From Streptomyces sp. NBC_00224 (GTDB lineage Bacteria; Actinomycetota; Actinomycetes; Streptomycetales; Streptomycetaceae), in assembly GCF_041435195.1 (NCBI RefSeq), contig NZ_CP108106.1, forward strand, positions 1,922,001-1,986,000: a DNA stretch of 64,000 nt, read 5' to 3'. The position numbers were made by a program, and so were the translations under genes. Shown piece by piece: positions 19,528-20,828 of this stretch. The stretch's first letter is position 1. Every line of letters begins with the position of its first letter. The notes beneath the pieces are model-generated. The model was given only the letters and a program-made list of their open reading frames with translations, had not been told where the DNA came from and searched no databases.

Positions 19528-19809
19528 TCAGTCACCCGCCGGCGGCTGACGGTGCTCGGCGGCGATGCCGAACCGGCGCCGTTCGCCGGGAGCGGACGCG
19601 CCGTGGCGCACCGACGACACCGAGCTGATCACCTGCTCCTCGGCCGGCTCCGCCGCGCTTTCGAGTCGTTCCAGGTCAGCGGCGGACACCAGGGCGACGA
19701 GGGGCTTGCCGTGCCGGGTCACGACGACGCGCTCCCCGCCGTACACCACGCGGTTGATCAGCTCGGCGAGCTCAGCTCGGGCTTGCGTCACCGGAATCTC
19801 ATAGGCCAT
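19528..19809 (-). CDS. Phd/YefM-family antitoxin, no toxin gene adjacent
   Basis: The 93-residue protein is a typical Phd/YefM fold: [21 protein letters not shown], then [27 protein letters not shown]. Such proteins repress their own promoter and neutralise a Doc, RelE or YoeB toxin through a disordered C-terminus, here the last 40 residues. Starts at 19818 or 19821 (MMGS- or MGS-extended) are also possible. No toxin-like ORF lies downstream (the urease promoter follows) or upstream (clpP is divergent), so it is orphaned or acts in trans. Direct and inverted repeats in the shared promoter are its probable operator. Confidence 0.88.
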
Positions 19810-19826
19810 GCTCCCCATCATAACGG

Positions 19827-19853
19827 CCTGTACGTCCTGTACATTTTTTACAG
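19827..19853. promoter_or_regulatory. Operator-like repeats in the antitoxin/clpP divergent promoter
   Basis: CCTGTAC is repeated at 19827-19833 and 19836-19842 (9-base period), and CTGTA (19837-19841) forms an inverted repeat with TACAG (19849-19853). The block lies 18-44 bases from the antitoxin start and 30-56 bases before clpP, where a Phd-type autorepressor would control both directions. Confidence 0.6.
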
Positions 19854-19882
19854 AGACATCGGCACGAGAGAAGAGGTACGTC

Positions 19883-20515
19883 ATGCACGGCCCGTCCGCC
19901 CGCCACGTCCTGCCCGAATTCTCCGAGCGCACCTCGACCGGGGTCCGCACCCTCGATCCGTACTCCAAGCTCCTGGAGGAGCGGATCATCTTCCTCGGCA
20001 CCCCCGTCGACGACACCGCGGCCAACGACGTAATGGCCCAGTTCATGCACCTGGAGCACGCCGACCCGGACCGCGACATCTCGCTGTACATCAACTCCCC
20101 CGGCGGCTCGCTCACCGCGATGGCGGCGATCTACGACACCATGCGGTTCGTCACCTGCGACGTGGAGACGGTGTGCATGGGCCAGGCCGCCTCGGCCGCG
20201 GCCGTGCTGCTGGCCGCGGGCGCCCCGGGCAAGCGGCTCGCACTGCCCGGCGCGCGGGTCCTGATCCATCAGCCCTCGGTCGCCGAGCCGATCCAGGGAC
20301 AGCCGTCCGACCTGGAGATCTACGCCAATGAACTCCAGCGCGGACGCGAGCTGTTGACGGAGCTGCTGGCCCGGCACACCGGGCGGTCCGTCGAGCGGAT
20401 CAGCGCCGACATCGAGCGGGACACCATCCTCGACGCCACCGCGGCCGCCGAGTACGGGCTGGTCGACCACGTCGTCACCAGCCGCAAGAACTCGGCCCCG
20501 GCGCAAGGGAGGTAG
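19883..20515 (+). CDS. clpP: ATP-dependent Clp protease proteolytic subunit (solitary ClpP paralogue)
   Basis: The 210-residue serine protease subunit forms barrels that degrade proteins fed by Clp ATPases. The triad is complete: serine in [11 protein letters not shown] (canonical form GQAASMGA), histidine in RVLIHQPS, and aspartate in [11 protein letters not shown]. The N-terminal hydrophobic-pocket loop is present around [10 protein letters not shown]. Instead of the usual tandem clpP pair, one gene is followed four bases later by a small unrelated ORF. AGAAGAGG precedes the ATG at 19883. It is divergent from an orphan antitoxin; Clp proteases are known to degrade antitoxins, which makes the pairing notable. 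Confidence 0.93.
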
Positions 20516-20519
20516 AGCC

Positions 20520-20828
20520 GTGCTGCCGGAACTTCCGCCGCTGCCCGCGCTGACGCGTGCCGAGGGCGAGTTCATCGACGCGTACCTCGACGCGCTCGAC
20601 AGGCTGGGCCGGATCAACCCCGCCCGGCACCGCGACACCTACGGCGCGCTACGGGCCGCGCAGGCGCTCGTCGGGCAGGCCGTGGCGCTGCGGGACGCGC
20701 TGACGACCATGCATCGGCGCGGCGAGTCGGAGCTGCACTCCGAGACGCTGGCGCGGGCCCTTCGGCTGCTCGACGGGGAGCGCCGGGCGGGCCGTCTGAC
20801 GGTGCCGCCGCCGTCATCCGCGAGTTGA
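20520..20828 (+). CDS. Small helical protein in operon with clpP, function unknown
   Basis: The 102-residue product is not a family I recognise. It begins with a proline-rich MLPELPPLPALTRAEG and continues as predicted helices rich in A, L and R with no cysteine or catalytic motif. The GTG start at 20520 is backed by GGGAGG (20508-20513) inside the end of clpP, and only four bases separate the genes, so the two are co-translated. A role as an adaptor, chaperone or regulator of this ClpP is a reasonable guess from context only. Confidence 0.72.
   Translation: MLPELPPLPALTRAEGEFIDAYLDALDRLGRINPARHRDTYGALRAAQALVGQAVALRDALTTMHRRGESELHSETLARALRLLDGERRAGRLTVPPPSSAS

Follow-up and report, generated by a model that had tools for sequence, protein, structure and literature searches.

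A toxin-free Phd-family protein as the probable dedicated regulator of a clpP5-small gene operon in Streptomycetaceae

In the Streptomycetaceae, a chromosomally fixed unit joins a gene for a solitary ClpP, clpP5, and the small gene that follows it to a divergent gene for a Phd/YefM-family protein, phd. It is judged fairly probable that this Phd functions without a toxin, as a dedicated and probably negative regulator of the clpP5-small gene operon that acts through a conserved 22-bp site. The unit was studied in a stretch of 64,000 nucleotides from Streptomyces sp. NBC_00224, hereafter the window, and in its relatives. Its features, numbered from the first letter of the window, are the following.

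19528..19809, minus strand: phd, encoding a solitary Phd/YefM-family protein of 93 amino acids (MAYEIPV...).
19817..19822, minus strand: -10-like element TATGAT, 7 bases 5' of the phd ATG, of a putative leaderless-type phd promoter.
19830..19851, no strand assigned: conserved 22-bp site GTACGTCCTGTACATTTTTTAC with GTAC, GTAC and TTAC cores at 9-bp spacing; probable operator over the clpP5 promoter, to which Phd would bind.
19883..20515, plus strand: clpP5, encoding a solitary ClpP of 210 amino acids, with S104 (20192-20194), H129 (20267-20269) and D180 (20420-20422).
20507..20512, plus strand: GGGAGG, a ribosome-binding-like sequence for the small gene, identified by eye directly 5' of the clpP5 stop codon.
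20520..20828, plus strand: gene for a small protein of 102 amino acids of an unnamed family, with a GTG start four bases past the clpP5 stop codon.

The divergent arrangement of phd, clpP and the small gene had been proposed in a sequence-only reading of the window, and with its genes and coordinates it proves to be a real unit. The same is true of the 102-residue open reading frame (ORF) just past the clpP stop codon, which has no match among the Pfam families, and of the repeats in the shared promoter region, CCTGTAC at 19827-19833 and 19836-19842 and CTGTA/TACAG at 19837-19841 and 19849-19853. That reading also regarded a solitary clpP as an oddity. It is not odd in itself, because the 9.18-Mb genome possesses, besides the clpP5 of the window, two paired clpP genes at 3.53 Mb, which makes three in all, and clpP5 was already recorded in S. 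lividans (PMC9765437). Among the named relatives with full 6-kb flanks, the unit occupies a fixed chromosomal place, the ure-bio locus, with ureA nearby in 65 of 73, an nlpC-like gene in 71 of 73 and bioF in 69 of 73. The locus was also found in S. violaceoruber (L171), where the site has one mismatch, which should make laboratory relatives suitable for work on it. The order clpP to small gene is the same in all 30 loci that were read, and phd lies within the same stretch in 25 of them. In the remaining five, as well as in the genome G003, phd is found elsewhere in the genome, either at a distance of 0.8-14 kb or on a different contig.

In the available text on S. lividans, clpP5 is described as lying apart from clpP1P2 and clpP3P4, as the single clpP of the window lies apart from the pairs, and it is called monocistronic (PMC9765437). 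This description is doubtful because in 134 of 138 distinct loci the small gene either overlaps the clpP5 stop codon or starts no more than 30 bases from it, a count that, like all distinct-locus counts given here, pools every fetched locus, including some chosen as exceptional and one set ranked by likeness to the small protein, and is not a population frequency. Identical sequences, incomplete or over-long ORFs and loci with too little upstream DNA were dropped from these counts. The portion of the S. lividans account available makes no mention of a Phd-linked site or of the loss of catalytic residues described below (PMC9765437).

Membership of Phd in its family is supported by matches to PF02604 (53.3 bits, cut-off 29.8) and TIGR01552 (59.5 bits, cut-off 20.8). 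Among 127 distinct proteins, residues 1-50 are nearly invariant and residues 51-72 variable, followed by a short conserved tail around R79-F80-G81-I82-A83-A84-E85-H86. The predicted structure has a helix-strand-strand-helix N-terminus and a disordered tail (model pLDDT 62.6). In all 127 distinct phd genes, TANNNT precedes the ATG by 6 or 7 bases, and this layout suggests a leaderless phd transcript.

The window ClpP matches PF00574 with 238.5 bits and shares 64% identity with the ClpP1-type copy in the same genome. In a quick tree with some long branches, for which 22 of the 26 chosen ClpP5 loci were used, these 22 ClpP5 lie on one side of a branch and 25 other sequences on the other (SH-aLRT 92, below the starred level of 95). 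Judged from its sequence, the window ClpP is the known solitary ClpP5 of Streptomyces. The earlier description of this ClpP as catalytically complete holds for the window copy, in which S104, H129 and D180 of the Ser-His-Asp triad are all present, but not as a general trait. The triad is complete in 56 of 145 distinct ClpP5, a set that includes the decayed L215 and two divergent members from other genera (L211, L212), and at least one catalytic residue is missing in the other 89. The residue lost most often is His, with Arg, Gln or Glu in its stead. On a quickly built tree of the small gene and the phd N-terminus, many branches of which are weak, the triad state changes at least 15 times, compared with a shuffled mean of 45.

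Purifying selection acts on each of the three genes. Expressed as medians of pairwise NG86 estimates over non-independent pairs, dN/dS is 0.27 for clpP5 (137 pairs), 0.20 for phd (259 pairs) and 0.14 for the small gene (182 pairs) at nucleotide identities of 0.86-0.97, and 0.33 for pairs of triad-less ClpP5 versus 0.26 for triad-bearing pairs at identities of 0.84-0.97. These values indicate that triad-less ClpP5 are maintained proteins under slightly relaxed constraint.

Non-catalytic Clp subunits, the ClpR proteins, are present in plastids and cyanobacteria (PMC6508832). Like these ClpP homologues, triad-less ClpP5 lack a complete triad and are under purifying selection. Unlike in ClpR, the loss in ClpP5 has happened repeatedly and is scattered across a single orthologue group, the window copy is complete, and membership in a ring is putative. 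A second precedent is ClpP_ADEP of S. hawaiiensis, described in the accessible part of its report as the sixth clpP of one producer, located close to an antibiotic cluster, closest to ClpP1 and working through mixed complexes with ClpP1 and ClpP2 (PMC12607617). ClpP5 is likewise accessory and resembles the ClpP1-type copy of its own genome. It differs from ClpP_ADEP in being family-wide, in residing at the ure-bio locus and in having repeatedly lost triad residues. Given the triad losses under selection and the ClpP_ADEP precedent, a modulating ring subunit, presumed to enter mixed rings, fits ClpP5 better than a free-standing protease. In a separate observation on clpP3P4-type loci (L227, L229, L231, L233, L235), the partner that most resembles ClpP5 carries Gly where the catalytic His would be (SGD) in five of five, so that one half of this pair, too, looks catalytically incomplete.

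The sequence-only reading had offered a feedback switch in which Phd represses clpP5 and ClpP5, together with a Clp ATPase, degrades Phd. The complete triad of the window ClpP5 is compatible with such a loop, and there is a precedent in S. cattleya, where, according to the available text, the half-life of RelB2 was shortened on co-expression with ClpX and four of six ClpPs (PMC4989188). Also in favour of the loop, the FGI motif of the conserved Phd tail is present in 123 of the 132 distinct Phd proteins encoded beside a clpP5 ORF, compared with 1 of 10 from loci that lack a whole clpP5. In this comparison L166 was placed by hand among the whole-clpP5 loci, the ten include partial or decayed clpP5 (L114, L184, L243), and L213, L215, L218 and L221, with decayed phd, were left out. 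The motif was picked after looking, however, and on the tree the association comes down to three well-supported independent pairs and is not significant (median sign-test p 0.25); L251 has a whole clpP5 and yet an altered Phd tail. The link between the FGI tail and clpP5 is thus a lead only. Moreover, the tail is kept in 71 of 78 triad-less loci as in 48 of 50 triad-bearing ones, and therefore does not track ClpP5 catalysis. Since 89 of the 145 ClpP5 are without a catalytic residue, destruction of the antitoxin by its own ClpP5 cannot be general, and the loop is regarded as unlikely.

The 22-bp core is the sole match at up to three mismatches in both the window (mean of 0.00 in 100 shuffles) and the whole genome. 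At up to five mismatches and within 250 bp upstream, it was found in 142 of 157 distinct clpP-bearing loci and 142 of 144 clpP5 loci, and in none of 13 clpP1-P4-type control loci, where the best match had 10 mismatches (range 10-12). The two clpP5 loci outside the 142 are L095 of genome G016, in which a thioesterase-like gene (288 amino acids, L095:8669-9535) stands between the site and clpP5, and L211, which has the site at five mismatches and for which the upstream interval was misplaced (the clpP match starts at residue 26). Core positions 0-3 and 8-12 are conserved at 99% or more, versus 30-56% in the flank just downstream. The GTAC cores are also at least 94% conserved in 18 loci where phd is more than 250 bp away or outside the fetched stretch.

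As in the yefM-yoeB and phd-doc type II operons, a Phd/YefM-family protein is here combined with GTAC-cored operator-like repeats. The YefM operator, in the available description, consists of paired TGTACA palindromes 12 bp apart centre to centre (PMC7730913). This arrangement was not found at the site, whose GTAC cores are 9 bp apart. Further differences from these operons are that no toxin partner was found, that the genes are divergent and separable, and that the site stays at the target rather than at the antitoxin gene. Repression by Phd is suggested by the precedent of the Phd family. No recognizable sigma-70-type promoter was seen in the clpP5 promoter, and therefore Phd could instead be an activator. 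Control by ClgR was considered and rejected: the nearest exact ClgR-like match to the site falls inside phd (19581), and the 84 matches in the window at up to one mismatch, with 71.3 expected, are near chance.

Additional copies of the site were encountered in a few genomes. In G024 and G318, a second copy lies directly before a gene for a 341-amino acid NAD-dependent epimerase-like protein, about 9 kb from clpP5 (L097:16694-16715, L222:5022-5043), and may mark a second target. In G200, a second site precedes a fragment of clpP5 (residues 1-55; L223:4178-4448) in addition to the whole locus. The other locus of G016 (L094:7699-8431) has phd, the site and a 42%-identical small protein, with no clpP5.

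The site and phd are also coupled across genomes. Among 297 genomes of the family, the site was present in 142, phd in 157 and the small protein in 167; 142 had both site and phd, 140 had neither, and none had the site without phd (Fisher p 5.7e-68, a value that ignores relatedness). A reversed pattern of the site, used as a control, occurred in 1 of the 297. In 15 genomes phd was found without the site at up to three mismatches; of the 13 examined further (all but G070 and G137), 11 have it at four or five mismatches and two are without it (G063, G119). The site was not found at the phd-bearing loci L212 and L221. Among 37 genomes of the same genus, 32 encode the small protein and 33 a phd orthologue (at least 71% identity), and the same 33 have the site. 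Neither the site nor the small protein was found in 24 genomes outside the genus. The number of clpP genes is 3 or 5 in the 33 unit-bearing genomes (4 in G001, which is 79% complete) and 2 or 4 in the four same-genus genomes without the unit.

The prospect that relatives keep clpP and the small gene without the antitoxin had been raised as a reason to regard the unit as coincidental. In 13 of the 167 genomes with the small gene phd is absent, and all 13 also lack the site and have no full-length clpP5 in the stretch fetched at those loci (in L214, the contig starts 481 bases before the small gene, so that the upstream side is partly covered). Several of these loci keep remnants of phd and clpP from which the promoter side is missing. 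Since the site and phd are usually adjacent and the remnants are cut on the promoter side, much of their joint loss is attributable to one deletion across the shared promoter. The separated layouts provide an independent argument for the coupling, beyond such a shared deletion. In six genomes with this layout, the site stays at clpP5 while phd keeps its -10 element, and by eye no site is seen in the roughly 160 bp upstream of the separated phd. In L130, from a near named relative, phd lies 4.4 kb from a perfect site, with an XRE-type regulator-like ORF in between (L130:900-5300). Overall, the antitoxin gene, the site, clpP and the small gene belong together, and their coupling is stronger than the first reading of the sequence could know.

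Because the site is always accompanied by phd, in 142 genomes, and stays at clpP5 when phd moves, the Phd protein most likely serves as a dedicated regulator of clpP5 and the small gene that works without a toxin. Another regulator or a promoter element could act at the site instead, with phd as a mere travelling neighbour. Such an explanation could draw on the proximity of the site and phd, which are within 60 bp of each other in 112 of 142 distinct loci, and on the separated phd genes, which have no site of their own; binding of Phd to the site is itself putative. It is nevertheless improbable, given that the site never occurs without phd, even though layouts with a distant phd that keep the site exist, and that the GTAC cores resemble those of YefM operators (PMC7730913, in the part available).

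At E <= 0.001, 1491 homologs of the small protein were found, and no Pfam domain or functional name appears among the 120 matches listed. It has a conserved N-terminal PPLPALT motif and three predicted helices, a fold for which structure searches gave no informative match. The sequence-only reading suggested that it might replace a toxin, and a variant in which it is the toxin, Phd the antitoxin and ClpP5 an accessory would account for the site standing before the small gene even without clpP5 (L110-L113, L145) and for the conservation of the Phd tail, through which members of the family bind their toxins. The small gene, however, is under tighter constraint than the other two and persists in several genomes that have lost phd, which makes a toxin unlikely. 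Besides the 13 phd-less genomes, 8 of 14 loci without phd keep it as an open frame over its length, and the remaining six show divergence, a frameshift or decay; one of the 14, L160 from a named record, was classed as phd-less from its locus. Furthermore, G297 and G010 possess phd, the site and clpP5 without the small protein, and phd may be up to 14 kb away or on another contig, unlike paired toxin-antitoxin genes. The toxin was accordingly rejected as the main reading of the small protein, and the variant is considered very doubtful. The site, phd and the small gene are found without a whole clpP5 in L110-L114, L145 and L243. From these loci, as well as the thioesterase-like gene of L095 and the epimerase-like gene, it follows that clpP5 is not the sole thing under the site. 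It may be that the operon exists chiefly to make the small protein, and that ClpP5 is the more dispensable product.

A cognate toxin, in the operon or elsewhere in this genome, was not found for the families searched. The genome has three PF02604 genes, and its sole ParE/RelE gene adjoins a different Phd from the one linked to clpP5; no spare RelE/ParE or Fic/Doc toxin was detected, the Fic match being below the cut-off. The earlier statement that the antitoxin is without a toxin stands for ParE/RelE and Fic/Doc in this genome, and extends no further than those families; within them, the Doc or RelE toxin elsewhere that had been named as a sign of a coincidental unit was not found. On contig C3, a small gene and an ORF resembling RelE to the eye come after the third Phd gene (L240:1490-2410). 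The missing toxin might make phd a chance remnant of a lost toxin-antitoxin pair, but this is scarcely credible for a gene with a dN/dS of 0.20 that is found in 157 of 297 genomes and encodes near-invariant residues 1-50, and decay of phd was rejected on the strength of its selection and conservation.

In the preferred explanation, Phd as dedicated regulator, Phd would be made from its own leaderless-type promoter and, as dimers of the Phd family do, would bind the GTAC cores, spaced at 9 bp, at the promoter of clpP5, the first gene of its one main target operon. In the adjacent layout, it would also cover the region upstream of its own promoter. Loss of Phd, for which proteolysis is the probable cause, would lead to joint production of ClpP5 and the small protein, and the small helical protein may be a partner of a ClpP5-containing complex. 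A dedicated regulator for an accessory clpP operon has a parallel in Streptomyces. PopR, a ClgR paralogue, is described in the available texts as an activator of clpP3P4 that is removed by ClpP1P2 (PMC12607617, PMC9775585). The regulator proposed here differs in being a Phd-family protein, in being probably a repressor and in having an unrelated site. Searches of the open-licence literature turned up no earlier report of a link between Phd and clpP5.

More tentatively, the unit could be a homeostat. The housekeeping Clp protease, when its activity is high, would degrade Phd and thereby turn on clpP5 and the small gene, and ClpP5 and its small partner would then enter ClpP1P2 rings and damp or redirect them. 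This would explain how ClpP5 can lose catalysis while its gene, the site and the Phd tail persist. If it is true, a toxin-free antitoxin domain would be the sensor of a protease homeostat, as PopR control with its sign reversed, and ClpP5 would be a ClpR of actinobacteria.

In conclusion, the interpretation of this locus should shift from a toxin-antitoxin system, or a switch built on an antitoxin-degrading protease, to a toxin-free Phd regulator of a module of ClpP5 and the small protein. More generally, this would be a family-wide example in which an antitoxin domain, with no toxin to neutralise, does the work of an ordinary regulator. Because ClpP5 in many relatives cannot act as a protease by itself, tests of its role have to be framed differently. 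With a candidate dedicated regulator, an exact candidate binding site and a near-constant partner gene for clpP5, that role becomes testable.
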